Source: a virus. From it: a stretch of 21,480 nucleotides of DNA. The notes beneath the pieces are model-generated. The model had not been told where the DNA came from. It did not search any database and saw only the letters and a program-made list of their open reading frames with translations. This document shows, piece by piece, positions 6,001 to 21,399 of the stretch. The DNA lies in IMG/VR virus record IMGVR_UViG_3300020417_002193, positions 1 through 21,480 of that record, one strand, 5' to 3'. The number at the start of each line of letters is the position of its first letter. The first letter of the stretch is position 1. The position numbers and the translations under genes are program-made.

Positions 6001-6092
6001 TCGGTCTAGTATACTCTGGAGCAACGAACGCAGATGGAAGCGCCACAGGCGTTCCAAGCAACCTACGCGGTTGGTGGTTAATGGAAATTTGA
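3..6092 (+). CDS. Very large beta-rich phage tail/virion structural protein, 5' end missing
   Basis: The reading frame is open from base 3, so the start lies upstream and ATG 138 is only an internal Met; 2029 residues are visible. The N-terminal 780 or so residues are rich in aromatic, Asn and Asp residues. A conserved-looking segment follows (about 780-840, with STGLPARQE and GGIVFYTG), then an acidic run of six Asp (847-852). The rest, to about 1890, is a long series of short beta-type motifs such as FVVNGEVRF, TINIGNS, DLSVG and GDIQLNGGDL, suggesting a beta-helical or fibrous shaft. A calcium-loop-like DNDGDGAID sits at 1139-1147. The last 130 residues, from TGARKWIYQ to GWWLMEI, look like a compact tip domain. 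There are no membrane segments. It sits directly before tail-collar genes, which fits a tail fibre or baseplate-attached protein. The structural class is an inference from composition and context; the exact T4 counterpart is not identified. Confidence 0.8.
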   Translation, partial: DVDKRLVRLPNGFETNRTYYVIAPGRKTAPHDYSPTSFAKTEATKLMLAETKANAAAGIYIYSAESDTIDKDVEIDLYQFTLDEKYDLTTYKCNLDIAVSGGTAVTGGIETNVAHIFDAPQNVPQRVFFRPIGTNDLPLLAASFQSDNAAANNNDSTAGVADSAGRINPEFEFYVRYQASTTKPNKIFTIYKTFADAQNDLNRITFQTLNPDLKFTVYANKAKAPFGFDPRGISYSNATGGRWYIKVKDTSSSPDPAIYQESILWRTHQSDYTQSPDPKTADSWYFRQEDNREAEDRTYKLRYVIPNYLEGVRDPINGFVIKTRTDTSRRLRPQKILLKPAPGNFKSDAFFQNDANPGERIGWTSDQIIAAKGSLNNTYDPYNLAQGKKTIVTDNNISMTIQSGRFKTVDGDQLLELHVYDYEPNPNILSLNKARFRTVKITAPQGGSFEVEKTLDGGTINSANRITWTGNSSGSAYVHAYTNVGNDHYLILKGFSDGDLEYSPFYNTRFQQGSIYADMLDDPDMGKSLPLKRLIAKEQNDLFYKQDGAPVYTITPGDTIKEDGTENRYVVASVEDVGDITDTFYIFEIETLQRRIAQQQDGIYYLTAIRGNMSPLPLGAGNQRNFRNFKFSQPISYLYPQNYKNDPFWFQYAGTTANEKANAATLIDPPATFSAADNYVHGLVRTNDSKSSMTKEAIIDLVATPAFEDNTYLTNVGDIDARIQAQEGNASSGAEDRQIPIAGDNRVFTDQKWYVELRRPSIARAGNHTFEYLGFGPGNYSTGLPARQEIVLTATQDYYAQAKRQDGGIVFYTGINSNGELYIGNRKINAITGEEEFLERAALLDSDDDDDDISSLVTTFEVPVTFNQNITVNGGDGELVSNFNAPVAINVNNNDLTFQPNALQIYSNVDQNDPDENGQPNGPANNPLLDRNSFTPRQTGDIFIGKNQVKAAQFALNPIKNGQGYKVQTHTIIDGGIVFPSNVSPNQSALYSLSTGGTALDAKQYVKYGTSGAFILPTDGDIILKGGSVERSGSLGWVYANFYTAIQNAEIASVQFNGTKYVKLNWNIVSSVQQTNNTLGIVETSRIRIGNFYPNGALNSDGGFPIVSPVINGSVVPFNPSDSFCYIEIGESIAAVSYDNDGDGAIDQPVSNPTWANLVLRAGSPINGGTPAPTMEFSSANWKETGVIGADVLRTDTGSIGDYKLGINTIAAAAHSAYETAFVDVNTDPKANLEVIGTTWISAKKVLTWLDESAATLTNKTETGQANGFLVGGFRDNPDSTALIRANTLTNRVGINVANNNAVLDKTFVVNGEVRFSDTLTLTNGTIESPSGSFNLGPTSTTINLFPLATTLNVANDATATQTINIGNSTENQTLTIGGAADTSALYIHSSSESSVIDIGTVSNSNAGYQSSITMGGAFANSASLFNIRNRLLKVDGDMQIGTPSTAVTKMYSFTPKLEIFSASGGSNEIDAFRTGSILSIGADAGTTTINNSLYVKASEEVDGNITLNGGLSVGIISATRGIFNTTTSSHAVGATDDLNVDIYRRVEIGKTIDSQGNALWGGTTFQEGSTTYYLPLNEAIGVTDIAIGDLLLIDRGDTTGGSNQANSEILRVVTLINASNAADPEGYRVEVERAQEGTTLRTDHPDNCKVVKLTKQNNVSYLTQAIATAGSQGDTVQITTAEFGGSININDILRLNDGELFNVSGVSTDASNIQGLRVNDGAEPTAFTVFEVLSTTGQTTIEGPTEVRNDITLTGSTSNNDKMFTITNGASSPVTTFDVDSSDGDTRILGDLSVGANFQEFTVDGDLGNVTMRGGNLDIFNDAGNTKQLEFINGNGNLTIAGVIETEGTGTNLFAGDIQLNGGDLTVNDGSTTRFKVNNDGGIDLGGITDYISQTGARKWIYQSTVSGDGGVLTANVNYFTKASSDLVLKLPANAQTGDMIRFVDIGGALTYNVRMIIRAPDGIPVAGDSTNTNLSIGSVDFTNYGGGELIVTTPNASFGLVYSGATNADGSATGVPSNLRGWWLMEI
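2341..2460 (+). other. GC-rich codon island inside the large structural gene
   Basis: By direct count, 68 of these 120 bases are G or C (57%), against 45% in the 60 bases before and 37% in the 60 bases after. Codons change with it: CGT replaces AGA for Arg, and GCG or GCC replace GCT or GCA for Ala. The encoded segment (about residues 780-819) contains STGLPARQE and GGIVFYTG. The frame is uninterrupted. It may be a recombination tract or a site under nucleotide-level constraint. Confidence 0.6.
3417..3443 (+). other. Calcium-binding-loop-like motif in the structural protein
   Basis: These codons give DNDGDGAID, which fits the DxDxDGxxD pattern of thrombospondin type 3 and dockerin-like calcium loops. 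It is the only clear copy seen in this protein. A loop of this kind could stabilise a fibre in seawater, but binding is not shown by sequence alone. Confidence 0.4.
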
Positions 6093-10248: not shown

Positions 10249-13200
10249 ATGGCAACTCAAACAGTCACCTACGACGTACCAGGCACATACAATATTGTTT
10301 TACCAACTAATGTAAAGTCTCTCACATATGAGATGCGTGGTGCTTCTGGTGGTAAAACTGGTCCTGGTATTATAATTAATAATTCATTTACTGCTGGTGC
10401 TGAAATTAATGGTGGACCAGGAGAAAAAATTACTGGTGTTCTTGATGCTGTTGCTTGTTCTGGTAAAACATTAGTAGTTCAGATTGGAACAAAAGGATTT
10501 CCTGGAACCACTAATATTGGTGTTGATGGTAATGCTTCTGGGGGTACTGGTGCATTTAATGGCGGAGCAGGTGGATCACAACCTGGAAATGAAACTATTT
10601 GTGCTTCTGGTGGAGGTGGAGGAGGAGGTTCTGCAACTACTGTTAGTGTAGATAATGGATATATTCTCATTGCTGGCGGCGGTGGAGGAGCAGGTGGTGC
10701 TACTTATGATCAATGGGACTCTCAGTATAGAACTCCAAATGGATCTGCTGTTAATCCTGGTACAGTAGGAACAACATTGAATGCATCTGCTGGTCAAGCA
10801 GGTGGTGCTGGAAATGTTAGTGCTAATGCTGGATCTGGTGGTGGAGGAGGAGGAAATAATCAACCTAACTTCCAATATGGTGCTGGTGGTCTTGCTGTTA
10901 TTTCTGGTAACCATATTGGTGGTAACCATGGATTTAAAGGCGGTAGTTATAGAGACACAAATTTTGTAACTGAAGCATCTACAAGTGCCAATGCATTCAC
11001 TGATAATGATGGATTCTTTGAGTTGGTATATGAGACTGGTGACCCACCTAATGTCCAGTTCAGTGTTTCTCCTGCTGCTGTTATTGTCAATGGAACAGGT
11101 GCTACACTTTCGTGGGAATGTACAGGTGATACAGCATCTGCTCCTACAAATGTTACATTGAATGGTAATAATGTTGCTTTTATTGATAGTTTAGCGGTTA
11201 ATCCAACTAGCACTACAACATATACTATTGTTGCTACTGGTCCTGGTGGAGTCACTAGTGATAGTATTGTATTGACTGTTATACCTGAAGGTGATCCACT
11301 AAACAATGAATTTGTTACCACATATGGTACTGGCACACATACTCTACAAGTTCCTGCAGGTACAACAAATGCATTCGTAACTATTGCTGCTGGTAGAGGT
11401 GGATCAGGTGGTTCTGATTCAGGTGGTAGTGGATGCCCTGGTGGTGCAGGTAGAGTAGGACAATTTAGATTGAAAGACGATGGTGCAGGTAATCCATATG
11501 GTACTGCGGGGTCACTTAACCAAACAATTTATCAAGATACTACAGTTGTTGTTCCTGCAGATATCAATGAAGTTAATTATGTAATTCAAGGTGGTAAAGG
11601 TGGAGATACTGCAGCATTTACTACTGGAAAATTAGGACAAAGAATTACTGGTGTATTGACAAATGTTGCTGGACAAACATTAAGTATTAAAGTTGGTGGT
11701 AATGGTGGTAATGGTAACTCTGCTGTTGATCTAGGATCGCCAGGTCAGGGATATGATAATGGTGGTGAAGGTGGTACAAATTCTACAATTAGTTCTACAT
11801 ATACAACTGTCCCTCTATACAGGTATTTTAATTCTACTACTGGTGATCACTTTACGGGTTTAGATGTTGCACCACCTGCTGGATATATTAGTGAAGGACA
11901 GATTGCAAATGTATTTACTGATCCACAACCACCAGGAACAGTTGTTCTTCAAGACAACGAACCAGGAAAACCAGCTAGTACATATACTGCATATGTTTTT
12001 CCTGCTAATGGTACACAACCATTCTTTATTGATGTAACGGAAATTCCAACAACTATCATTTATGCTAAGACAAATGGAACTGATGTTTTGTGGACATCTA
12101 ATGCAGCAGAAGGAAATAGTGATACTCCACCATATGGACTAGATACAACAAATAATGCATTTGGATATGCATTTTATGCACCAACTTCTCCTGTTACTTT
12201 AACTGTTAATGGTGCCACTAGTGTAAGAGGTGGCGGTGGTGGTGGATCCAGTGCCATTCATATTGGTGCTACCACATTAGTTGTTGCAGGTGGCGGTGGT
12301 GGTGCAGGTGGTCCTGATGCCTGTGGAACACTAGATCAGACTTCTGGACAAGGTAATGGTATTCTATACACTACTGGTGCTAGAGCAGCTGGATTAGACG
12401 GCGGCGATGCAGATGCCAACGGCGGTGGTGGAGGCGGCGGCGGTGCTGGTGGTGGTTGGACACCCACCAATCTTGCTGGTACAGGTGGATCTGCATGTGT
12501 AGGTGGTACTGGTGGTCAAACAGGAAATGGATACTACAATCTATCTTATTCTCAGAATGCTGGTGTTCTAAGTCAAGGAAATAACTTTAACTCTGGTGAT
12601 GGATATGTAACTCTTTCTGGTGCTGGAAATAATAACTGGAATTTGCAAATTAGAGTAGGAAATCAGGGATCTAACGGTGCATCTGGTTCTCCTGGTAACA
12701 AACCTGGCGGTTCTGGTGGTACTGGTGCAGGTGGTTTTATGGATGGTGGAGCAGGTGGTCGTGATAGTTTAGGTGGAGGATGGTCTGGTTCTGGTGCTGG
12801 TGGCGGTGCTGGATCTGGTATTTGGGATGTAGATAACAATCGTTGGTTTGCTACCGCTGGTGGCGGAGGCGGAGGCGGTGGAGGTTCTTGGAACCGTAGT
12901 TGTTCTGGATCTGCTGCTTCTGGTGGTTCATGGCAAGCTACTACTAATGTAAGTGCTGCTGACGGCGGCGGTGGCGCTAACTGTGGTGGTGATGGAGGTG
13001 GCGGCGGTGGTGGCGCTGGCGGTCATTCAGGTGGTGGCGGCGGCAGTGCTGGTGCTGATAATAGTGTTGGTGGTTCTTCTGGAGGTGCTGGAACATCTCG
13101 TTATGACAACAATGCATTAGAATTATTACAAGGTGGTAGTACAAACAGTGCTAGTGGTTATGCAATTGTTTCATTCTCTGTACCACCACAAATTGCATAC

Positions 13201-14613
13201 TTTAGAGCAAATGATGACAACACTGCTACTGATGTATATGAGGGAGATGTCGTAACACTATCTTGGAGTACATTATTCAATGGTGTTGAAACAGCATCTT
13301 TTGCTGAAATTGATCAAGGTATTGGTACTGTTTCAGTTGGTGAACAATCAACAACAGTCGTTGCTCCTTCCACATCAACAACTTATACACTAACAGTAAG
13401 TAATGCTGGTGTATTTTCACAGATGGCTGTTACACTTAATGTATTGGCACCAGATAATATTCCTGATATTTTTACTTTTGATAGTATTTTTGATGCTGAC
13501 TTAAGTACACAATATATTAGTAATGAGGTAACAATTACTGGTATTCAAGTAGATGTAACTGGTTCTGCATCTAATGGTGCATTCATGTCAGTAAATGGTG
13601 GTGCATTTACGCAAAATGCAGTAACCATTAGTAACGGTGATACTGTAAGACTCAGACTGACTTCTTCTGGTACATATACCACTCAATTAACTAGTACAGT
13701 TACTATTGGATTAACTAGTTCTCAGTGGAACATTACTACTGCACAAGAACCTGGACAGTTCCCTAATGCATTTGAATTTGAAAATGTCTTAGATGCTCCA
13801 ACTGAGACATATGTACAGAGTAATCAGATTACGATTACTGGTATTACTGTCCCAGTTATTGTATCTGCTCCTACAAATGGATTTGAAAGTTCTGTTAATG
13901 GTAGTTCGTTTAGTACAGCACAGAAAGTTATTAACAATGGAGAAATTTTAATTCTTAGATATCTGACTAGTGGTAACTTGGGTGAGACTGCATCCACTTA
14001 TGTCACTGTTGGTGATAGTCCAAACAAAAACTGGTCAGTTACTAATGTCGTGACTGCTGACACAGATCCAGATTATTTTGACTTTGTTAATGTTGTTGGT
14101 GCATCTGCCAATACCATGACCGAGAGTTTACCTCAGGTTATTAATGGCATTAATGTTCCTACACCAGTAACACTAACTGGCGGAGCAGAGTTTAGAGTAG
14201 GCACTGGTGCATGGCAAACCAGTGGAAATATTAATGTAGGTGATTCTGTACAACTAAGAGTTACTTCTAGTGCTGATTATGGTGGTGAAGTAGAAGTAGA
14301 TGTTACTATTGGATCTCTCACTGATGTTTGGAAAGTTATCACTACTACAGATGGTGATCAGATTCCAGATGCTTTCTTCTTCATCAATCAAATCAATCAA
14401 GTACCAAATTCATTTGTTTATAGCAACACTGTTCTTGTACAAGGTCTTACTGCTGCAGCAAATATTACAGTAACTGGAGGTAGTTTCAAGGTTGGTAATG
14501 GTGGATGGGTAACCACGGGACAAATAAATAATGGAGAGACCTTGCGTTTAAGAATACTTACACCTAATGGTCTCAATCAAACAGGAAATATGTCAATCAC
14601 AGTTGGTCCATAA
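10249..14613 (+). CDS. Giant glycine-rich modular adhesin with Ig-like domains and four C-terminal repeats
   Basis: This 1454-residue protein begins immediately after the preceding stop. Its order is: Gly-rich domain 1 (6-264); Ig-like (265-345); a short Gly-rich module (356-425); Gly-rich domain 2 (429-793), interrupted at about 521-643 by an insert with VPLYRYFNSTTGDHF that resembles DUF5648; Gly-rich domain 3 (797-978); Ig-like (980-1066); and four ~100-residue repeats anchored at F1075, F1175, F1277 and F1376. The Gly-rich domains share ITGVL, an IKVGGNGG-type strand, a LVVAGGGGGAGG-type core and a GYxxxS/Y exit strand, resembling the ALK-type glycine-rich fold. All eight cysteines noted lie before residue 985. 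Polyglycine helices determine receptor choice in T-even gp38-type adhesins, so host recognition is a reasonable inference. No phage orthologue is claimed. Confidence 0.78.
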   Translation: MATQTVTYDVPGTYNIVLPTNVKSLTYEMRGASGGKTGPGIIINNSFTAGAEINGGPGEKITGVLDAVACSGKTLVVQIGTKGFPGTTNIGVDGNASGGTGAFNGGAGGSQPGNETICASGGGGGGGSATTVSVDNGYILIAGGGGGAGGATYDQWDSQYRTPNGSAVNPGTVGTTLNASAGQAGGAGNVSANAGSGGGGGGNNQPNFQYGAGGLAVISGNHIGGNHGFKGGSYRDTNFVTEASTSANAFTDNDGFFELVYETGDPPNVQFSVSPAAVIVNGTGATLSWECTGDTASAPTNVTLNGNNVAFIDSLAVNPTSTTTYTIVATGPGGVTSDSIVLTVIPEGDPLNNEFVTTYGTGTHTLQVPAGTTNAFVTIAAGRGGSGGSDSGGSGCPGGAGRVGQFRLKDDGAGNPYGTAGSLNQTIYQDTTVVVPADINEVNYVIQGGKGGDTAAFTTGKLGQRITGVLTNVAGQTLSIKVGGNGGNGNSAVDLGSPGQGYDNGGEGGTNSTISSTYTTVPLYRYFNSTTGDHFTGLDVAPPAGYISEGQIANVFTDPQPPGTVVLQDNEPGKPASTYTAYVFPANGTQPFFIDVTEIPTTIIYAKTNGTDVLWTSNAAEGNSDTPPYGLDTTNNAFGYAFYAPTSPVTLTVNGATSVRGGGGGGSSAIHIGATTLVVAGGGGGAGGPDACGTLDQTSGQGNGILYTTGARAAGLDGGDADANGGGGGGGGAGGGWTPTNLAGTGGSACVGGTGGQTGNGYYNLSYSQNAGVLSQGNNFNSGDGYVTLSGAGNNNWNLQIRVGNQGSNGASGSPGNKPGGSGGTGAGGFMDGGAGGRDSLGGGWSGSGAGGGAGSGIWDVDNNRWFATAGGGGGGGGGSWNRSCSGSAASGGSWQATTNVSAADGGGGANCGGDGGGGGGGAGGHSGGGGGSAGADNSVGGSSGGAGTSRYDNNALELLQGGSTNSASGYAIVSFSVPPQIAYFRANDDNTATDVYEGDVVTLSWSTLFNGVETASFAEIDQGIGTVSVGEQSTTVVAPSTSTTYTLTVSNAGVFSQMAVTLNVLAPDNIPDIFTFDSIFDADLSTQYISNEVTITGIQVDVTGSASNGAFMSVNGGAFTQNAVTISNGDTVRLRLTSSGTYTTQLTSTVTIGLTSSQWNITTAQEPGQFPNAFEFENVLDAPTETYVQSNQITITGITVPVIVSAPTNGFESSVNGSSFSTAQKVINNGEILILRYLTSGNLGETASTYVTVGDSPNKNWSVTNVVTADTDPDYFDFVNVVGASANTMTESLPQVINGINVPTPVTLTGGAEFRVGTGAWQTSGNINVGDSVQLRVTSSADYGGEVEVDVTIGSLTDVWKVITTTDGDQIPDAFFFINQINQVPNSFVYSNTVLVQGLTAAANITVTGGSFKVGNGGWVTTGQINNGETLRLRILTPNGLNQTGNMSITVGP
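12228..13095 (+). repeat. GGN-rich low-complexity tracts encoding polyglycine
   Basis: There are many runs of four to nine Gly codons, mixing GGT, GGC and GGA, for example around 12228-12245, 12421-12455, 12860-12885 and 12990-13050. They code for Gly-rich domains 2 and 3 of the adhesin. A shorter tract lies at 10609-10630 and 10675-10700 in domain 1. Codon mixing limits simple slippage, but unequal exchange between tracts would stay in frame. Confidence 0.75.
13459..14610 (+). repeat. Four tandem ~300-base coding repeats, collinear with those at 9079-10245
   Basis: The units are anchored on Phe codons 1075, 1175, 1277 and 1376 (spacing 100, 102, 99). Each matches the same-numbered unit of the preceding gene best by eye: unit 2 of both has SAPTNGF then SSVNG, and unit 3 of both follows TADTDP. 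This indicates duplication or exchange of the whole block rather than independent unit expansion. Confidence 0.8.
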
Positions 14614-16280
14614 TGTCATATACTACTAATTGGTCTGTATCAACCTACGCTAGTGCTGATAATGTACAGTTCGGGCATTGGTACAGTCAGCGAAATCCTA
14701 AACTAGATGGAATGACAATCGGAACAGTTATGTCTATCTTTAGAGATAAGACAGGTAACTGGGGTACTCTTGATGGAGATTTAGATTCTAGATTCCCTGG
14801 ATGGATTGAGTGTGATGGTAGAACAGTAAGCGCACAAGATTATCCAGATTTATTTGATGCTATTGGCACAACATATGGTGGCACTGCAACAAAATCTTTA
14901 AGTGGTAACACTTACACATATTCTGGTAACTTTGTATTACCAAACTATCACAACAGAAAATTATTTGGTATTGGAAATGTAGATGGTAACTCTCCATCTT
15001 CTCCTACTGTTGTTACTTACAAGGGTCCTGATGTAACTCAAGGTGCTAGTGGTGACTCTACTACCGTTGGATCACAAGGTGGTAACTGGTTCATTAAAAA
15101 AATTGATGGAATTGGTACTCCTCCTGATGAACAAGTATTCCCAGGTATTACACAACCAGATGGTCAAGTTGTTGCATTCCAGTTGTGGCAGAATGAAGAC
15201 TTGAATCCTGCTGCATATGTAACCAAAGCAATTGGTGAATGGGTACAGAGAACTGAAGGTGGTTCTCCAAACTATTGGGACAATATAAATGAGTTTCAAG
15301 AAGCAGATATTACTATCACTGGTGGTAGTGGCACTGGATTACAAATTAGAGTGAGGGCAGAAGCACAATTAAATGATGCTGGTACTGATCCAGATGACAC
15401 TAGAATCAAAATTATGACAGTATTGAACCCTGGATCAGGGTATCAAGTTGGTGATACGATGGACATTACATTCCCAGACCCTGCGCCTGGTGGTGGTACT
15501 ATCTCACTCAGTCCTGGTCTCAGAGTATTGACTGTAACAGACTCATTTACCACCAATACTGACGGTAGATTTTTCAAGTTAGGATCTCTTACAACTACTG
15601 GTATTGATAGTATCTCTGGTGAAATTGATTATGAAATTACTGGTAACTTACAGGCAGCTATTGGACCACTAAATCCAACTGTCACTATTCCAGCGCAGCA
15701 CACTCATGATATTATTACAGCACAAGTAGACCAAATTGGTGTTGGATATGTTGCATGGGCAACTCCTGGTTTCTATCAAATTAGTACAGGAGAAATTGGT
15801 GCTTCGACTTACTCACAAATCGGTTATAATAGTGTTGTAAGTCCTGGTGGTGAGGTTAACTTCTCATTCAACAACTACTGGGCAGGTGATGTACAGAATA
15901 GCATTCCTGGTCTTGCAAGTGGCGGTAATGCTAGTGCTGGTATTGGTGTAAATGAAGTTCAGGGTAATATGGTTGTATATAACCCAGGGCAAACGAGAAC
16001 ACATACACATTACCTGTCGCAATCAGACTTTGGTGATTCTGAGAATGTTTATGGATGGGGTAATGCTAATGGTGGTGGTACTGCAGCAGGTGGTATGGCA
16101 ACCAATAATACTACAACTATTAATTTTTCTCAAACAGATCTAGCATTGAGTGCCAATGAGGCAGATTTTGAGTTAAACTTATCCAAAACAGTTGTTCCAA
16201 CACCATCAATGGTTCCAGAATCGACTGTACCACTGTTGACTAAATACCATCGAGTCAAGTATATTATTAAAGCATACTGA
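14613..16280 (+). CDS. Tail-collar domain protein 3 with a large insertion
   Basis: The 555-residue product has a tail-collar domain at about 37-122 (IGTVMSIF, FPGWIECDGRTVSAQDYPDL, FVLPNYHNRKLFGIG). It has two HxH pairs, H363-T-H365 and H464-T-H466, and the shared ending VKYIIKAY. Between the collar and the first HxH pair is an extra segment of about 200 residues. It includes GGSGTGLQIRV and NPGSGYQVGD (272-281), a GxGYxxGD motif that I associate with repeated beta modules in cyanophage structural proteins. ATG overlaps the previous TAA by one base. The C-terminal third is Gly/Asn-rich like the other collar paralogues and is probably the receptor-facing part. The domain call is solid; a specific baseplate position is not assigned. 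Confidence 0.83.
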   Translation: MSYTTNWSVSTYASADNVQFGHWYSQRNPKLDGMTIGTVMSIFRDKTGNWGTLDGDLDSRFPGWIECDGRTVSAQDYPDLFDAIGTTYGGTATKSLSGNTYTYSGNFVLPNYHNRKLFGIGNVDGNSPSSPTVVTYKGPDVTQGASGDSTTVGSQGGNWFIKKIDGIGTPPDEQVFPGITQPDGQVVAFQLWQNEDLNPAAYVTKAIGEWVQRTEGGSPNYWDNINEFQEADITITGGSGTGLQIRVRAEAQLNDAGTDPDDTRIKIMTVLNPGSGYQVGDTMDITFPDPAPGGGTISLSPGLRVLTVTDSFTTNTDGRFFKLGSLTTTGIDSISGEIDYEITGNLQAAIGPLNPTVTIPAQHTHDIITAQVDQIGVGYVAWATPGFYQISTGEIGASTYSQIGYNSVVSPGGEVNFSFNNYWAGDVQNSIPGLASGGNASAGIGVNEVQGNMVVYNPGQTRTHTHYLSQSDFGDSENVYGWGNANGGGTAAGGMATNNTTTINFSQTDLALSANEADFELNLSKTVVPTPSMVPESTVPLLTKYHRVKYIIKAY

Positions 16281-16288: not shown

Positions 16289-16945
16289 ATGGGAGCACAA
16301 CCGATTCGTCCTATGGAATTAATGGACGATCCTAATATTACTAAGTCCGACTTTACGGACTTTATTGGTGTGTGGGAAAATTTCATGCCAAAATCCCGTT
16401 GTGATGCAATGATTAAACATTTTGAGAATGTTGTTGCTAACGGGTCTGTGGTAGGAGGAGATGATGCTACCATGGGTGGTGTCATGGATGGAACTAACCA
16501 GTTCCCACAAGGATCTTTGGGTAGAAAGGATGAATCTATCCTTATGAACTATTCGGATCCTAATCTAAATTATGAGATTAATCAATATCTTACAGCATGT
16601 GTTCAGCACTATGTTGAAAAATATGATCAACTGAAGCATGGTAAGTATGTATCTGAAGATTCTAAGATGCAGAAGACAAAACCAGGCGGTGGTTATCATG
16701 TTTGGCACTATGAAAGTGCAGGATTTGGACATCACGCGAGAGAACTTGTTTGGGCAATCTATCTAAATGATATGCCTGAGGGTGAAGCAGAGACTGAATT
16801 TCTTTACCAAAGAAGGAGAATCAGACCTACTGTAGGAACTGTATGTGTTTGGCCTGCGGGCATGACACATGTGCATAAAGGAAATACAGTGTTTACCCAA
16901 GATAAATATATACTGACAGGATGGTATATCAAGGTTCCTAAGTAA
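16289..16945 (+). CDS. 2OG-Fe(II) dioxygenase, prolyl-4-hydroxylase-like, with HxE variant
   Basis: This 218-residue protein looks like a double-stranded beta-helix dioxygenase of the prolyl-4-hydroxylase type, which uses Fe(II), O2 and 2-oxoglutarate. The candidate metal site is H140-Y-E142 (in GGGYHVWHYE) with distal H196 (in MTHVHKG). K206 lies ten residues after H196, the spacing between the iron His and the 2-oxoglutarate-binding Lys in collagen prolyl hydroxylase. Glu in place of the usual Asp is unusual. EGEAETEF at about 165 corresponds to the GGETxF block of the family. The N-terminal 130 residues contain an ENFMPKSRCDAMI helix typical of the region before the core. It follows the tail-collar gene by 8 bases, with a good ribosome-binding site. 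The substrate is unknown; a protein substrate is plausible from the family. Confidence 0.75.
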   Translation: MGAQPIRPMELMDDPNITKSDFTDFIGVWENFMPKSRCDAMIKHFENVVANGSVVGGDDATMGGVMDGTNQFPQGSLGRKDESILMNYSDPNLNYEINQYLTACVQHYVEKYDQLKHGKYVSEDSKMQKTKPGGGYHVWHYESAGFGHHARELVWAIYLNDMPEGEAETEFLYQRRRIRPTVGTVCVWPAGMTHVHKGNTVFTQDKYILTGWYIKVPK

Positions 16946-16950
16946 CTAAA

Positions 16951-17895
16951 ATGGCAGAATATTTCTATCAAAAACCAACAGATGACGAAATTAGGGAATT
17001 TTGGTCGAAGACCATTAGACCTAGAGAGTCTGTCATGGAGTTAAACTTTGCTGAGAAAGCAGTTACCTTAGGTAATATTGCACTAGGCGGTAGAACTACA
17101 TTTATCGACGAGAAAGCATGGACAGATATTGTTCTTCCTGCTTTCTCATCTGAATGGCATGATCCTGGTAGAGATGAAATTAAGAATGTAATCCTGTACA
17201 GTGATGATACATATCTCTGCTTCAGATCTAAGATGAGATATGAGTTTGATACAAATACTACTAGGTGGCAAGACTATACCTATAAGAAGGGTAAAGCATC
17301 TGAACTTAAGACTATTTACGAAACTATTCGTACAGTCGCTATCATTCAAAAAGAGGCAAAAGATAGAGAACTCTTAGAAGAAGTAAGAAAGTTAAATCTA
17401 GAAGCACTTGATTATTTCTATGATAGCAAGTGGTATAAGAAGATGGATGAAATCCAGAAGATGCTACTGTATTCTGATTGGAGAGTTCTTCCTGATGCAC
17501 CACAGAAGTGGGATGGTGAAAGAGATGCGTGGGTTACTTGGAGACAGAGATTAAGAGATCTCCTTCCTGATAATCCAAGAGAGACATTTGAGGACAACTT
17601 CGCGATGTTTAAGTTTCTTCAAACATTGAAGTATCCTGTTGACCCAAGAGTATGGGCAACAATGTATCCTAATCGTGATGTAGATTATTTGTCTACTGAT
17701 GATCAGTTTAAAAAGTATGACTTTGAAGTATCTAAAGACTTTGTTGGTAAGACTCAATTGAACTTGATTGAATTCTTAGAGACATATGATGCTAACACTA
17801 GACCTATTGAAGCTAAGGTGTTAGAATTAGCAAAAGCACTGAGATTAGAAACTGTTTACGAAGGACTTGACTACGAAAAATTTGTTGCTGAATAA
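16951..17895 (+). CDS. Protein with phage tail-assembly-chaperone-like domain
   Basis: The 314-residue protein contains a block at about 165-210 with LLYSDWRVLPDAP, a conserved Trp-rich stretch (W187, W194, W197) and RQRLRDL. This matches the signature I know from small phage tail-assembly chaperones (Phage_tail_APC type), where a TDW...LPD...W..YR..LRD motif is typical. Those proteins are usually under 150 residues. Here the motif sits in the middle of a larger, charged, mostly helical protein, with a possible coiled coil at about 115-165 and an extra C-terminal region of about 100 residues. Placed after the tail-fibre block, it may help fold or attach a fibre. It begins 5 bases after the preceding stop with no strong Shine-Dalgarno sequence. 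The function is inferred from motif and position. Confidence 0.65.
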   Translation: MAEYFYQKPTDDEIREFWSKTIRPRESVMELNFAEKAVTLGNIALGGRTTFIDEKAWTDIVLPAFSSEWHDPGRDEIKNVILYSDDTYLCFRSKMRYEFDTNTTRWQDYTYKKGKASELKTIYETIRTVAIIQKEAKDRELLEEVRKLNLEALDYFYDSKWYKKMDEIQKMLLYSDWRVLPDAPQKWDGERDAWVTWRQRLRDLLPDNPRETFEDNFAMFKFLQTLKYPVDPRVWATMYPNRDVDYLSTDDQFKKYDFEVSKDFVGKTQLNLIEFLETYDANTRPIEAKVLELAKALRLETVYEGLDYEKFVAE

Positions 17896-17898
17896 TAT

Positions 17899-18543
17899 AT
17901 GATCTATGAATATGATATGCTCCCTAAAGGAGTTGTGAAGAACATACTTGATTTCTATCAGTTTTGTGAGTTTACAGACGGTTCGTGGTCTGGATCTTCT
18001 AAAAAAGAATTAAAGTACAATGAGCAGTTGTTGGATGAAGCACACTATCCAACTCTTGTTTCTATGATGAATAAGTATATCTCTGAAAATCAGGGATTTA
18101 ACTATTACTTCATTCCAAGCGCACATACACATCCAAACTTCCTTAGATACAAGGAGGGTATGCATTATCATTGGCACAATGATATGTGGATCATGGATGG
18201 TATCAAGACGGATTACAGTATAACTGTATTTCTTAGTGAACCTGATGACTATGTGGGTGGAGAACTAGAAATTGAAGTTGGTGATTCCTCAGTAGAATAT
18301 AAACTAGAAGCAGGCAAAGCAGTAATTTATCACACTGGACTCAGACATAGAGTTAAACCAGTATTAAGTGGTGAACGAAATGTAATTACATGGTGGTTTA
18401 CTTCCATGATTAATAATGGTAAGGTTCGTGATATAATTACAGAGTATTCTCGTCTCCTTGCAGAGACACCCATGGATCCTAGTGTGAAGTGGAAGTTTGA
18501 GAACATTCGTCAAAACTTGATTAGAGAACATGCAACTTTCTGA
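17899..18543 (+). CDS. PKHD-type 2OG-Fe(II) hydroxylase, PiuC/YbiX-like
   Basis: The 214-residue protein has the layout of PiuC/YbiX-type PKHD hydroxylases. The N-terminus resembles the usual start (MLPKGVVKNILDFYQF, then FTDGSWSG). It is followed by FLRYKEGMHYHWHND, the TDYSITVFLSEPDDYVGGEL block, EAGKAVIYHTGLRHRVKPV and GERNVITWWF. Predicted iron ligands are H93, D95 and H150; R160, ten residues after H150, should bind 2-oxoglutarate. All core residues are present, so it is probably active. Family length is about 220-230, so this is near full length. Several in-frame Met codons occur at the start (17899, 17917); the first gives the best fit. The last 14 bases overlap the next gene. The natural substrate of this family is not settled. 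Confidence 0.87.
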   Translation: MIYEYDMLPKGVVKNILDFYQFCEFTDGSWSGSSKKELKYNEQLLDEAHYPTLVSMMNKYISENQGFNYYFIPSAHTHPNFLRYKEGMHYHWHNDMWIMDGIKTDYSITVFLSEPDDYVGGELEIEVGDSSVEYKLEAGKAVIYHTGLRHRVKPVLSGERNVITWWFTSMINNGKVRDIITEYSRLLAETPMDPSVKWKFENIRQNLIREHATF

Positions 18544-19048
18544 TATTAAAGAATATCCTAACTTCTTCTCTCCCACTGATCATCTATCAATCAATCGAAC
18601 AATTAGTAAACGACCGTGGTACTGGGGTCATCAGAGTCATCCTAAAAAGAATGCTGGTATACCTCCATTTTGGCAGATGCCACTGGATGATGATGCCTTC
18701 TTCACAAAGTATCTCCTAAATAGGATTGAAGAAAATACTAGCACTGAATATGATCTTGAGCGTGTTTACGCAAACGGTCAAACTTATGGCATGAGAGGTA
18801 GTATTCATCAAGATGGATTTGATGAGAGTTGTAGAACTCTACTATATTATCCTCTTGAAGTTTGGAATCCCGAGTGGAATGGCAAGACTGCTTTTAAACT
18901 AGGGAATGAATATCGTTATGTTACCCCAGAACCAAACAAAGCAATTATATTTCCTGGCGCAATTCCACACTGGGCAGAAGAGACCTCCAGAACATTTGCT
19001 TCACTGAGAATCACTATCGCATGGAAACTGTTTATTAAAGTAAAATGA
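18530..19048 (+). CDS. Small 2OG-Fe(II) dioxygenase
   Basis: The 172-residue product fits the 2OG-Fe(II) dioxygenase fold. GSIHQDG gives H93 and D95, IPHWAEE gives H147 as distal ligand, and SLRITIAW gives R160 as likely 2-oxoglutarate anchor (R154 is an alternative). The strand order RTLLYYPLEVWNPEWNGKTAF, then NKAIIFPGAIPHW is typical: a hydrophobic strand, W-x-x-E-W-x-G, and the strand before the distal His. It resembles small phage and cyanobacterial dioxygenases rather than PiuC. It starts inside the previous gene in another frame (14-base overlap) and ends in an ATGA overlap with the next. The substrate is unknown. Confidence 0.8.
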   Translation: MQLSDIKEYPNFFSPTDHLSINRTISKRPWYWGHQSHPKKNAGIPPFWQMPLDDDAFFTKYLLNRIEENTSTEYDLERVYANGQTYGMRGSIHQDGFDESCRTLLYYPLEVWNPEWNGKTAFKLGNEYRYVTPEPNKAIIFPGAIPHWAEETSRTFASLRITIAWKLFIKVK

Positions 19049-19380
19049 ACTATCAGGTATACGAATTTCAAGAAATTATTGAACAGGCAATTGCTTGGAG
19101 AAGAAGACCCACTGTCTTTGTTCGTAATATCGGTCCACGAGCAATTACAGATGAAACTAGACGAGATGAAGTTTATAATACTTACAGGATGCTGCTAGGT
19201 TCTGATGTAATGCAAGGTTTGCTTCGTAATGAATATATCTTTATCTCATTTGATGATTTAGAAACTGCACGAGAGTATGCTGTAGATAATTTCCCAAGAA
19301 ATAGTGAGGGAGATCCTGACATGTACATACGAGTTGAAGTATATGATAACGAAGGAAGAATCGAGTACGATAACAAATAA
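19045..19380 (+). CDS. Hypothetical protein, 111 residues
   Basis: I do not recognise this protein. It is 111 residues, charged, with alternating helical and strand-like stretches: an N-terminal helix (FQEIIEQAIAWRRRP), a strand (TVFVRNIG), a helix (DEVYNTYRMLLGSDV), a strand (EYIFISF), a helix (LETAREYAVDNF) and a final strand (MYIRVEVYD). This could be a small alpha/beta fold of ferredoxin type. There is no signal peptide, membrane segment or metal motif. ATGA overlap with the upstream dioxygenase and a 2-base gap to the next gene place it firmly in the same transcript. Composition matches the neighbours, so it is a real gene. Confidence 0.7.
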   Translation: MNYQVYEFQEIIEQAIAWRRRPTVFVRNIGPRAITDETRRDEVYNTYRMLLGSDVMQGLLRNEYIFISFDDLETAREYAVDNFPRNSEGDPDMYIRVEVYDNEGRIEYDNK

Positions 19381-19382
19381 TC

Positions 19383-20246
19383 ATGGCAGTAACCGAACAT
19401 TATATGGGTGCTCAAGAGCACAGTATCAACACAGAGACATTCTTAAATTACCATAGATATGTTCCTCAGGCATATGTAAAGTATGATCTGATTGCTGAAC
19501 CTGCTCGTGTAAAGTTACAAGAGTTCTGGGAATTTATCAAGAGATCTACACTCAAACCAGGATACTCATCAACAGCAATGTTGAAGACAAATGATTCTGG
19601 TATTTGGTTTACAACAACCGACAATACATTTGCTGAAGATCTATCATTTCATGCATATAGTACGGTAGATTATAGAACTGTCAATCGTACTGAGTTGTAT
19701 ACCATGTTTGGTAAGACAGAACCAGGGTTGATGAATACTTTGTTATTGGAAGAGTTAGACATTGGACTGGAAGGTATATCTGTCTCTCCTGAAGGTGAGA
19801 TGCAGAAATGTATTTTGGTATTTCGACCAAACTCACATGTTCTGTCACTTCTAAATCTTCCTAATTATGAGAATATGCAGAAGTTTGTAAATCTTAGTTT
19901 TGAAGAATTCAAGACATATAACAATGCTTCCACATCATTCAGTTCTCCAATTCGCTTGCAAGTTGACCCAGACAGTGATACAATCTCTGTAGAGTTTGTC
20001 AGTGCTTTCTTCCAGAAAGACTTCTACATTAGTGGTGGCAACCACAATTCTTATCTTAACAGAAAAAATCTATATTTTGAGAGAATGCTTGAGGCAGAGT
20101 TGCTGACAGCAGACGAGGTGGCATATTGTAAGACAAATAGTCCATCTTGGCAGCAATTCTCCATCAAATTTAAATATAGTGGTGGTGAGTTAGTAGATAA
20201 AAAACTGTACACATTCGATGTTAGTGACTTTGAAACTGTGACATGA
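19383..20246 (+). CDS. Hypothetical protein, 287 residues
   Basis: I do not recognise this protein. It is 287 residues, soluble, with mixed helix and strand and no clear catalytic motif. Features visible are an N-terminal AQEHSINTETFLNYHRYVP stretch, a helix PARVKLQEFWEFIKRS, a central GMNT-free acidic region with LLLEELDIGLEGISV, a strand KCILVFRPNSHVLSL, and a C-terminal strand FSIKFKYSGGELVDKK. No HxD...H...R set for a dioxygenase was found, although two oxygenase genes follow. It is tightly linked (ATGA overlap at its 3' end), so it may act with a neighbour, for example as partner or substrate carrier, but that is speculation. Confidence 0.7.
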   Translation: MAVTEHYMGAQEHSINTETFLNYHRYVPQAYVKYDLIAEPARVKLQEFWEFIKRSTLKPGYSSTAMLKTNDSGIWFTTTDNTFAEDLSFHAYSTVDYRTVNRTELYTMFGKTEPGLMNTLLLEELDIGLEGISVSPEGEMQKCILVFRPNSHVLSLLNLPNYENMQKFVNLSFEEFKTYNNASTSFSSPIRLQVDPDSDTISVEFVSAFFQKDFYISGGNHNSYLNRKNLYFERMLEAELLTADEVAYCKTNSPSWQQFSIKFKYSGGELVDKKLYTFDVSDFETVT

Positions 20247-20809
20247 TCCTTGGTAGTATTATTCATGAGTATAAACTTGATTGCCCAGATGTAAACGAAC
20301 AAGTTATTGATTTCTTATATCAATACAAGAGAGCACAATCTACTTCTGATGTTAGATCCAATAGAAATGGATGGCAGAAGAATCATCTTGAGACTTTCCC
20401 ACAACTTAAACCTCTCACTGATCTACTTGCTGTAGAGTTTGAGAGGTTTATTTGTGATGAGATGTTGCCATTAGTTGAGACACGATTCTATCTTGGTAAC
20501 TTGTTCTGTAATATCAATCCGCCAGGTGCTGTGCATGTACCACATGTACACCAAGGAGATTTTACTGGTGTATATTACTTGCAAGCACCAAAAGATTGTG
20601 GTATGCTTGGTATCTTGAATCCACATCAATGTCCTAACACTGCAAGAATGACATCCATGTTTGCTGGTGTCAAACTAGAGCAGAAGATTGTTCCCACTGT
20701 TGGCACTGGGTATTTCTTTCCAACACATCTTGTACACTATGTTGAGGAGAATCTATCACAATCAGATAGGATATCCTTGTCATATAATATTAATGTTGAA
20801 CCAAAATGA
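20243..20809 (+). CDS. 2OG-Fe(II) dioxygenase, TIGR02466-like
   Basis: The 188-residue protein matches the pattern of the putative 2OG-Fe(II) oxygenase family TIGR02466: NINPPGAVHVPHVHQGDFTGVYY in the middle, a LGILNP block, then PTVGTGYFFPTHLVHYVEE and DRISLSYNIN. Candidate ligands are H101 or H103 with D106, distal H165, and R176 eleven residues later for 2-oxoglutarate. The first half of the metal site reads HVHQGD rather than a plain HxD, so which residues bind iron is uncertain. ATGA overlaps link it to both neighbours. Length is close to what is usual for the family. Function within the phage is unknown. Confidence 0.78.
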   Translation: MILGSIIHEYKLDCPDVNEQVIDFLYQYKRAQSTSDVRSNRNGWQKNHLETFPQLKPLTDLLAVEFERFICDEMLPLVETRFYLGNLFCNINPPGAVHVPHVHQGDFTGVYYLQAPKDCGMLGILNPHQCPNTARMTSMFAGVKLEQKIVPTVGTGYFFPTHLVHYVEENLSQSDRISLSYNINVEPK

Positions 20810-21399
20810 TTTGTACAGTTCTTGATGGATTATTTGATCCAGTATATCTACATCAGATAGATTCACTGGTGAGAGATATTCCCCTGTGTACAAATAATAT
20901 TGCTAACAGGAAAACATATCCTTATGGCACAGAGGGTACACATAGATTGATGGGTCAAATACTATTCAATCGTGAGGATATTAATACTATTACCACATTG
21001 AAACCTGAGTGTGAAGACTTCTTCAAGATCTTGAAAGTAGTTGAGAAAGAACTTAATGCATACTTCTATTGCTCTCAGATAACTGTGAATGTACAGCACA
21101 GTGGTTGTGATGGTACTACACATGTTGACAGTCCCGACCCAAACGACTATACTATTCTATTATTCTCATGTGCTACATGGAATCAAGAGTGGGGTGGACA
21201 GTTTCAGTTGTGTACACCAGACGGTGAGGTTGTGGAAGAACACGAGTATATTCCTGGGAGAGTTATCCTCGTGCCATCAAAGCACCCTCATAGAGGTCTA
21301 GGACCAACTGAACCATATGTTTACAGGTCATCTGTAGCATTCAGAGTCACACCACTAGACTATCACCTTCGTAAAAACTATCAAGGACACGATGCTTGA
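20806..21399 (+). CDS. 2OG-Fe(II) dioxygenase
   Basis: The 197-residue protein has a canonical dioxygenase site: THVDSPD supplies H106 and D108, KHPHRGLGP supplies distal H162, and R174 (YRSSVAF) or R180 is the likely 2-oxoglutarate anchor. Between them lie YTILLFSCATWNQEWGGQF, the hydrophobic strand and W-x-x-x-W-G-G turn seen in SM-20/EGLN-like and cyanophage oxygenases, and EEHEYIPGRVILVPS before the distal His. The N-terminal third is less conserved-looking. It starts in an ATGA overlap with the upstream dioxygenase and overlaps the next gene by 8 bases. A protein substrate is typical for relatives but is not shown here. Confidence 0.83.
   Translation: MICTVLDGLFDPVYLHQIDSLVRDIPLCTNNIANRKTYPYGTEGTHRLMGQILFNREDINTITTLKPECEDFFKILKVVEKELNAYFYCSQITVNVQHSGCDGTTHVDSPDPNDYTILLFSCATWNQEWGGQFQLCTPDGEVVEEHEYIPGRVILVPSKHPHRGLGPTEPYVYRSSVAFRVTPLDYHLRKNYQGHDA

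Follow-up and report, generated by a model that had tools for sequence, protein, structure and literature searches.

The virus record IMGVR_UViG_3300020417_002193 carries five intact genes of the 2-oxoglutarate (2OG) oxygenase superfamily in a single packed run behind a tail-collar fibre gene. That this run is a cassette linked to the tail genes is close to certain, and its enzymes may well act on the tail proteins themselves, a reading that is given a probability of about 0.5. The window is the whole stretch analysed, 21,480 nucleotides in length (positions 1 to 21,480 of the record). It belongs to a virus of marine cyanobacteria, and the cassette is a conserved one of T4-like cyanophages (Kyanoviridae). 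The observation made in the first-pass annotation was confirmed in part: the packed run stands, with ORFs present at 16289, 17899, 18530, 20243 and 20806, while the claims on active sites and subfamilies required correction. Its interpretation, a modification cassette tied to tail adhesins, is also partly supported, the survey of gene order bearing out the link to the adhesins.

All window genes described here are encoded on the + strand. The window opens within a giant short tail fibre gene, whose 3′ part it contains (3..6092; phrog_4527, 2133 bits). The run includes a Gly-rich (19.5% Gly) virion or adhesin-like protein (10249..14613), recognised by virion-structural PHROGs and composition, and a tail-collar fibre protein (14613..16280; PF07484 Collar, 45.6 bits; phrog_4924 short tail fiber protein, 251.5 bits) which lies immediately upstream of the cassette and is a possible substrate. 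The first oxygenase gene, a1 (16289..16945), directly precedes the tail assembly chaperone (16951..17895), which occupies the T4-GC 741 position of S-PM2 and Syn1. A tail-chaperone-like gene had been proposed for this run, and the match to phrog_4697 (179.8 bits, E 1.6e-52) agrees; the Pfam family Phage_tail_APC gives only 17.1 bits, below its cut-off of 26.6. The chaperone is followed by the oxygenase genes a3 (17899..18543) and a4 (18530..19048), the small conserved cassette protein g5 (19045..19380; phrog_4883), the fast-evolving g6 (19383..20246; the place of T4-GC 743 / phrog_4851) and the oxygenase-superfamily genes a7 (20243..20809) and a8 (20806..21399). Throughout the cassette, neighbouring genes are separated by 2-8 bp or overlap by 4-14 bp. 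Terminator-like sites within the run number two, against a mean of 3.4 in shuffles, and a tRNA search of the window found none. The near-identical phage Sf-CH1b has another annotated 2OG gene after the run, so the window probably ends inside it; a further 2OG match in Sf-CH1b (21536-22204) lies just upstream of the giant-fibre start at 22367.

Promoter-like motifs were also considered. The sequence GATAAATA stands at 16901, 50 bp ahead of the chaperone gene, and in L004-L007 counterparts precede that gene by 20-50 bp. It was rejected as a late promoter within the cassette, as coding explains it: it spells the codons D205-K206-Y207 of a1, and K206 is the conserved lysine. The motif TATAAATA, which we take to be the T4-type late promoter, was absent from the window (0 found, 1.41 expected). 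The S-PM2 locus (L005) holds one TATAAATA, the sole one on its + strand, 44 bp before the giant fibre gene, which hints at late expression.

Pfam 2OG families (PF13640 or PF13759, each with a cut-off of 27) match all five proteins. Those of a1 (PF13640, 29.9 bits), a3 (PF13640, 52 bits) and a7 (PF13759, 49.6 bits) exceed the cut-off; a4 (21.1 bits) and a8 (PF13640, 24.0 bits) fall below it. HMMs iterated separately from a1, a3 and a7 retrieved 270, 272 and 273 ORFs, 270 of them common to all, and those from a4 and a8 retrieved one same subset of 87 ORFs; pieces of the window itself (L001-L003) were left out of this survey. The idea of five different subfamilies is right only in part, as a1 and a3 share phrog_61 and a4 and a8 share phrog_274 (51.9 bits for a8). 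The a7 protein is TIGR02466-like, as had been suggested, passing the NCBIfam cut-off (65.3 against 62.5 bits). The PiuC-like label of a3 is only partly borne out: it aligns with the PKHD-type hydroxylases 3dkq (E 5e-19) and PiuC 9ghl (E 9e-13) in PDB sequence searches, but it stays under all four PiuC/YbiX cut-offs (best PRK05467, 122 bits against 143 for the equivalog) and differs from PiuC and YbiX in its tail-gene context. Only four of the ten oxygenase pairs gave an alignment long enough to read (141-161 columns), the global alignments of the other six covering too few residues, and identity in these four is 19-24%; a recent tandem duplication is therefore not indicated, in line with the first proposal.

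An HxD/E...H metal site and a basic 2OG anchor are found in four of the five proteins and are conserved in all relatives aligned, truncated or over-long proteins having been removed before counting. The a1 site, H140-x-E142/H194/K206, is present in 53/53 unique proteins, where H196 is as invariant as H194 and may equally be the ligand. The sites of a3 (H93-x-D95/H150/R160, 35/35 unique proteins), a4 (H93-x-D95/H147/R160, 49/49 unique proteins) and a8 (H106-x-D108/H162/R174, 12/12) are equally constant. The exception to the His-x-acid pattern once ascribed to all five is a7, with H101-x-H103/H165/R176 in 19/19; its PDB relatives 3bvc and 2rg4 also align with HxH, and the site may indicate other chemistry.

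A PDB sequence search at E ≤ 1 returned no match for a1 or a8, and only a porin (E 0.08) for a4. Of the five, a1 was the one modelled, and its predicted structure (pLDDT 86.9, pTM 0.86) gives the double-stranded beta-helix of prolyl 4-hydroxylases, with Z 18.5 to the P. putida P4H, in keeping with its earlier description as prolyl-4-hydroxylase-like. Its best Foldseek match (E 3e-9) is PBCV-1 vCPH (PDB 5c5t), a virus-coded protein hydroxylase. The metal site of vCPH is HxD, whereas that of a1 is HxE, and identity among the structural matches listed is 16-21%.

The survey of gene order was anchored on the tail chaperone (phrog_4697) and covered 85 loci, near-identical contigs being included in the counts. 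In all 84 assessable loci the gene immediately upstream of the chaperone is a 2OG gene, and in 77/81 the one immediately downstream is a PiuC-like 2OG gene. Where this downstream gene is present, a4 comes next (71/71); g5 follows a4 in 67/67 assessable loci, and an ORF of 230-340 aa occupies the g6 place in 66/66. The conserved order is fibre, a1, chaperone, a3, a4, g5 and g6, and one clade additionally has a7 and a8. This order is kept although the chaperones of S-PM2, Syn1 and ACG-2014e are only 25-28% identical to that of the window, and the five-gene order persists in the clade where a7 drops to 53-54% and a8 to 58% (L131). In comparisons of the eight genes with five relatives, dN/dS was 0.03-0.30 in every case where it could be computed; the cassette genes are under purifying selection. 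Scattering of the genes away from tail genes in relatives, which would have spoken against a dedicated cassette, is not the pattern of a1, a3 and a4, since these keep their places around the chaperone across diverse loci; the order of a7 and a8 holds only within one clade, and a8 relatives are found in another island too (L121, L122).

Four loci (L055, L056, L061 and L062) are without a3 and a4. Adhesin type was rejected as the switch for this absence, the fibre layout, judged by eye from ORF sizes where the stretch allows, being like that of L058 and L073, which keep both genes. The absence of a3 and a4 with no evident change in adhesin layout counts against tail proteins as the substrate.

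The closest known system is the T4-GC 240 / 741 / 28 / 166 / 742 / 743 run of the cyanophages S-PM2 and Syn1, which shares its gene content and order behind the short tail fibre with the cassette. In the window, a7 and a8 come on top of this run; S-PM2 has one a7-like gene. In the S-PM2 and Syn1 records the genes are annotated singly, as 2OG oxygenase, chaperone, endonuclease V or hypothetical, and no description of the T4-GC 240-743 run as one tail-linked unit was found in the literature searched.

At least one 2OG oxygenase was found in 24 of the 26 genomes searched, and two or more in 23. That single 2OG oxygenases are common in cyanophages was thus an understatement; 24 such genes are given for one genome, S-SCSM1, in the available part of PMC9602691, where the repertoire is interpreted as host reprogramming. 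Some of the S-SCSM1 genes lie beside virion proteins, and the genome has no match to the cassette chaperone profile. Mass spectrometry of virions has been published for S-SCSM1 (PMC9602691) and for S-CREM1 (PMC9964418). This profile is strong in nine of the 26 genomes, each with the cassette triad around the chaperone, and phrog_4851 occurs in seven, all among these nine. Of the 80 2OG genes in these nine, 34 are no more than 4 kb from the chaperone (mean 3.26 under circular shifts, with a largest value of 22 over 20,000 shifts), though the genomes are related and the test therefore overstates independence. The other 46 of the 80 are not within that distance, which tells against tail proteins as the substrate. 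So does P-SSM2, where eight 2OG-like genes cluster in the company of genes for the head, replication and recombination; the stretch examined around them contains no tail fibre.

The g6 protein is predicted to be a PT-barrel (the ABBA prenyltransferase fold), which is new here. Its model (pLDDT 78.4, pTM 0.82) has 10 strands. The best 24 PDB rows from Foldseek are all prenyltransferases, with TM 0.42-0.49 for the best 12, and structural alignment gives Z 13.4 and rmsd 3.7 over 218 aligned residues. The predicted fold resembles that of NphB, AmbP1/3, PagF, PatF and KgpF. Sequence searches with g6 matched neither a Pfam prenyltransferase family nor any prenyltransferase in the PDB, and 58 divergent homologues showed no invariant K/R that could serve as basic diphosphate-binding residues, though at 9-19% identity (one row 89%) the alignment may misplace them. 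On these two grounds, g6 is not claimed as an active prenyltransferase.

Collagen was considered as a common substrate and rejected for the window, where none of the six adhesin/fibre genes has eight Gly-X-Y repeats in a row and Pro makes up 4-6%. Also new here is a second contig group with oxygenase runs close to tail fibres, collagen-like or of other kinds; some of these runs include a sulfotransferase (L134) or a tryptophan halogenase. The halogenase accompanies 2OG oxygenases in L121, L144 and Syn9. In L134, two 2OG genes are flanked on either side by a tail fibre with collagen repeats. Among the 21 relatives of L134 on viral contigs, 14 list five 2OG genes, located past two smaller ORFs that follow a large or collagen ORF. 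Gly-X-Y runs of at least eight occur in 4 of 23 second-group loci and in none of the shuffled long ORFs; the repeats number 56 and 53 in L134, 135 in L149 and 38 in L143, and L156 has a doubtful 8-repeat run on the other strand. Pro is absent from the L134 repeats listed and the window adhesins are without Gly-X-Y runs, so 'prolyl' hydroxylation is not implied. Seven large ORFs from six loci of this group were scanned: two match tail-fibre PHROGs and five match only PHROGs of unknown function, which weighs against a tail substrate. In L135, the ORFs listed with the a1 relative include no obvious tail gene, again contrary to that reading.

A virus modifying its own structural fibres has a precedent in the collagen lysyl hydroxylase/glycosyltransferase of Mimivirus, one bifunctional protein acting on collagen (cited in the available part of PMC8968730). 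The window differs in having several separate enzymes and adhesins free of collagen repeats. In the proposed mechanism, the 2OG genes would be expressed together with the tail genes, and their products would use Fe(II), 2-oxoglutarate and O2 to place hydroxyl groups on side chains of the fibre, perhaps while the chains are bound to the chaperone. Each hydroxylation would add 16 Da and yield succinate and CO2, and the modification may stabilise the host-binding adhesins or provide handles on them. Tail proteins are favoured as the substrate because of the fixed chaperone linkage, the conserved sites, the low dN/dS and the match of a1 to protein hydroxylases including viral vCPH, and also because L134 and its relatives have 2OG genes near fibres. 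Co-expression alone can keep gene order, which counts on the other side.

The enzymes could instead be made with the tail genes and hydroxylate host proteins such as EF-Tu or ribosomal proteins, aiding infection. The best structural neighbours of a1 include the P. putida P4H solved with EF-Tu (4iw3), the closest solved relatives of a3 are bacterial PiuC-type proteins, and other 2OG genes sit among replication genes. However, an enzyme of that kind would not need strict linkage to fibre and chaperone, and when cellular genomes were pattern-scanned using the a1 profile, only two loci emerged, one of them phage-like; host proteins are considered an unlikely target. The variation of a7, a8 and further copies between phages, together with the genome-wide abundance of 2OG genes, would suit an insertion hot spot in which multicopy passengers pile up beside fibres that they do not serve. 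This is possible for a7 and a8, but as an account of the cassette it is quite improbable given the constancy of a1 (84/84) and a4 (71/71) by place, their conserved sites and the low dN/dS.

Slightly less probable again is an auxiliary role in metabolism, proposed for cyanophages in the available part of PMC3037559, by which the enzymes would turn over 2-oxoglutarate (the 2OG/NtcA idea) or a small molecule and owe their tail position to timing only. Against it stand the fixed order in which several enzymes of diverse sequence surround a chaperone, the predicted prolyl-hydroxylase fold of a1 and the occurrence of 2OG runs close to tail fibres in the second contig group. DNA repair by AlkB-like or endonuclease V enzymes is mentioned in the available parts of PMC3037559 and PMC9146016, and phrog_274 carries the label 'DNA endonuclease V'. 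In a4 and a8, however, Pfam at E ≤ 1 gives 2OG families only and no endonuclease V domain, the 2OG site is conserved in both and the neighbours are tail genes, which makes a repair function most improbable.

In the parts of the literature available, the 2OG oxygenases of cyanophages are multicopy, little-explained 'auxiliary' genes assigned to host metabolism, 2OG levels or DNA repair. The fixed linkage to the chaperone and the 2OG runs near fibres elsewhere point to a definite, testable substrate, the fibres of the virion itself, and the predicted PT-barrel would add a second kind of tailoring protein to the same cassette. More tentatively, and less likely than not, certain phages may hold islands for tail-adhesin maturation, in which 2OG oxygenases with a PT-barrel, tryptophan halogenase or sulfotransferase would furnish the receptor-binding fibres with hydroxyl, prenyl, halogen or sulfate groups. 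The chemistry of the fibres would then vary independently of sequence, in a RiPP-like tailoring of virion proteins. If tail proteins are the substrate, phage attachment would rest on protein chemistry that requires O2 and 2OG, host-range studies based on sequence only would overlook a layer, and revision would be due for a set of AMG annotations.

The window, a complete virus record of 21,480 bases, runs from the 3′ part of a giant short tail fibre gene through two collar proteins, two virion/adhesin-like proteins and a collar fibre into the eight genes of the cassette. From the collar fibre onward, genes are separated by 2-8 bp or overlap by 4-14 bp. The first cassette gene behind the collar fibre is the 2OG oxygenase gene a1 (16289), followed by the chaperone (16951), beyond which lie the oxygenase genes a3 (17899) and a4 (18530-19048; phrog_274). 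The fifth and sixth positions are taken by g5 (19045), encoding a small conserved protein, and g6 (19383). The run closes with the oxygenase genes a7 (20243-20809; TIGR02466/PF13759 type) and a8 (20806-21399; phrog_274). Positions 16289-21399 share 97.6% identity with Synechococcus phage Sf-CH1b (PV340850). This phage has an additional annotated 2OG gene, SfCH1b_43, downstream of a8 with two other genes between, and a 2OG match (21536-22204) just 5′ of a giant fibre gene starting at 22367. The upstream arrangement is matched in S-PM2 (2OG gene 165307-165888, fibre from 165928).

The survey of gene order was anchored on the chaperone, itself no oxygenase. The best 80 of 142 relatives in the viral-contig scan, four annotated phages and the window gave 85 partly redundant loci (unique proteins after length filtering: a1 53, a3 35, a4 49, g6 50). 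A 2OG gene ends immediately 5′ of the chaperone at all 84 assessable loci, and another starts immediately 3′ of it at 77 of 81. Where the downstream gene is present, a4 comes next (71/71), g5 follows a4 (67/67) and an ORF of 230-340 aa stands at the g6 position after g5 (66/66). The most tightly tied gene is a1. The four exceptions without a downstream 2OG gene (L055, L056, L061, L062) retain a1, the chaperone and g5 and are missing a3 and a4; this loss with a1 kept indicates that the two oxygenase groups are separable. At one locus (L029), three consecutive a4-like ORFs follow the chaperone instead of one; either a4 has been duplicated in tandem there, or it is broken and shows up in pieces.

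Separate scans were made for a7 and a8, and all loci in them that include the chaperone keep the complete order of eight genes (L114, L117-L120 and L123-L133, several representing one contig). Within these loci identity falls to 53-54% for a7 and to 58% for a8 (L131). The a8 relatives of L121 and L122 (50%) sit in a different island. In L121 (5825-14426) this comprises about ten 2OG genes, one with its 2OG domain fused to DUF6817, with a tryptophan halogenase inside (PF04820, 282 bits) and an adjacent Gly_rich_2 protein.

Three of the five oxygenases of the window pass the Pfam cut-off and two fall below it; all five are linked by iterated profiles. The first-pass annotation had proposed a His-x-acid site in each. 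This is borne out for four, as the a1 site HxE/H/K is kept in 53/53 aligned orthologues, and the metal and anchor residues are kept in 35/35 for a3, 49/49 for a4 and 12/12 for a8. The exception is a7, with HxH in 19/19 aligned proteins, like its PDB relatives 3bvc and 2rg4. The TIGR02466/PF13759-type proteins aligned here carry HxH, in contrast to the HxD/E of other 2OG oxygenases. The predicted structure of a1 (pLDDT 86.9, pTM 0.86) has the prolyl-hydroxylase fold, aligning with 4j25 (Z 18.5, rmsd 2.7, 175 aligned) and with PBCV-1 vCPH (Foldseek E 3e-9). The a1 gene is among the most conserved of the cassette, at 98% identity in L118 versus 85% for the chaperone. Compared with five relatives, all eight genes show purifying selection (dN/dS 0.03-0.30, from comparisons with unsaturated dS).

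The phrog_274 family of 2OG proteins (18530-19048, 20806-21399) is named 'DNA endonuclease V' by PHROG and RefSeq. These cyanophage names look wrong, because Pfam and the conserved HxD...H...R site indicate a 2OG oxygenase. Another doubtful label is 'ferrochelatase', found on genes in or near 2OG clusters (S-RSM4 SRSM4_132, Syn9 gp54, S-PM2 p237); a3 weakly matches the 'ferrochelatase' phrog_3531.

The g6 protein has no Pfam match above cut-off and, in the window, no PHROG match of its own; phrog_4851 is matched by 41 of 45 members of its alignment. Its model (pLDDT 78.4, pTM 0.82) contains ten strands as hairpins between helices, and matches BFVD models of orthologues from four cyanophages (E 8e-14 to 4e-11). 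The top 24 rows of a Foldseek PDB search are all ABBA/PT-barrel prenyltransferases, after which the probability drops to 0.05. A second aligner matched g6 to NphB (7fhe; Z 13.4, rmsd 3.7, 218 aligned) and PatF (Z 12.4). TM-scores against prenyltransferases are modest and no catalytic residues were identified in g6; the predicted structure is likely a PT-barrel.

Among 26 author-selected genome records, T4 included, PF13640 is present in 24 and PF13759 in 22. The chaperone profile matches 12, nine strongly and three partially (E 3e-9 to 8e-5), and a1, a3 and a4 matches surround the chaperone in all nine strong-match genomes. Within these nine, 34 of 80 2OG genes lie <4 kb from the chaperone (expected 3.29; circular-shift mean 3.26, maximum 22 in 20,000 shifts); the resulting p = 5e-5 is not literal, the nine genomes being related phages. 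The g6 family phrog_4851 matches seven genomes, all among the nine, leaving Sf-CH1b and S-RSM4 without a match. Collar domains are not exclusive, occurring also in T4, S-CRM01, S-SKS1, ACG-2014f and, weakly, P-SSM2.

The other 46 of the 80 genes lie >4 kb from the chaperone. Together with the P-SSM2 cluster, they count against an exclusive link to the tail. In P-SSM2 eight 2OG-like genes are interspersed with gp23, gp3, uvsY, gp45 and gp44, and the stretch examined there includes no tail-fibre gene. P-SSM2 and three further phages were picked for visible 2OG clusters and are not a random sample. In the other three the clusters are close to fibre genes. Besides its chaperone-linked set, S-RSM4 carries eight more 2OG genes (L110:5337-11007), placed between gp13 and a tail fibre gene of 8.8 kb and bordered on each side by a few hypothetical genes. 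In Syn9, fibres, 'tail fiber assembly' genes (phrog_863) and two tryptophan halogenases precede seven 2OG genes, and in S-SCSM1 annotated 2OG genes 240-243 stand between virion proteins and fibre genes.

A pattern scan with the a1 profile across cellular genomes (84,980 species) gave two loci. L135, in a Gammaproteobacteria MAG, has no obvious tail gene among its unscanned ORFs. L134 (2-10118), a contig of a Flavobacteriaceae MAG, looks phage-derived. Two tail fibres with collagen repeats, the first (PF01391) scoring 140.6 bits and the second 130 bits, enclose, in order, two ORFs (86 and 224 aa), a PF13640 protein, a PF13759 protein, an unknown and a sulfotransferase. Among its 21 viral-contig relatives, several near-identical, 14 carry five 2OG genes (L136-L148 and L150), with the run broken by two other ORFs in L144-L147; two have three such genes and the rest none to four. 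Seven large ORFs from six loci were scanned: two (L137, L140) match tail-fibre PHROGs, five match only PHROGs of unknown function, and all seven match phrog_27227, as does the second collagen fibre of L134. The L144 run follows a large ORF sharing this family and contains a tryptophan halogenase (phrog_2928; L144:8375-9850); unscanned ORFs of similar size occur in L145-L147. L134-type contigs are not counted as independent of cyanophages.

Cyanophage 2OG genes have been treated in PMC3037559 as DNA repair genes or modulators of 2OG level. PMC9602691 ties them to reprogramming of the host and calls their functions 'not specifically investigated', and PMC10436341, PMC9146016, PMC9964418 and PMC10452541 list them as multicopy AMGs. 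Searches of open-licence PMC listings turned up no description of this tail-linked cassette or of a PT-barrel protein within it. The simplest account of the cassette is that its enzymes would act on products made with them, the fibre chains, perhaps while these are bound to the chaperone, whose gene lies between those of a1 and a3. We infer both substrate and residue, and put the chance that tail proteins are the substrate at about even (roughly 0.5).
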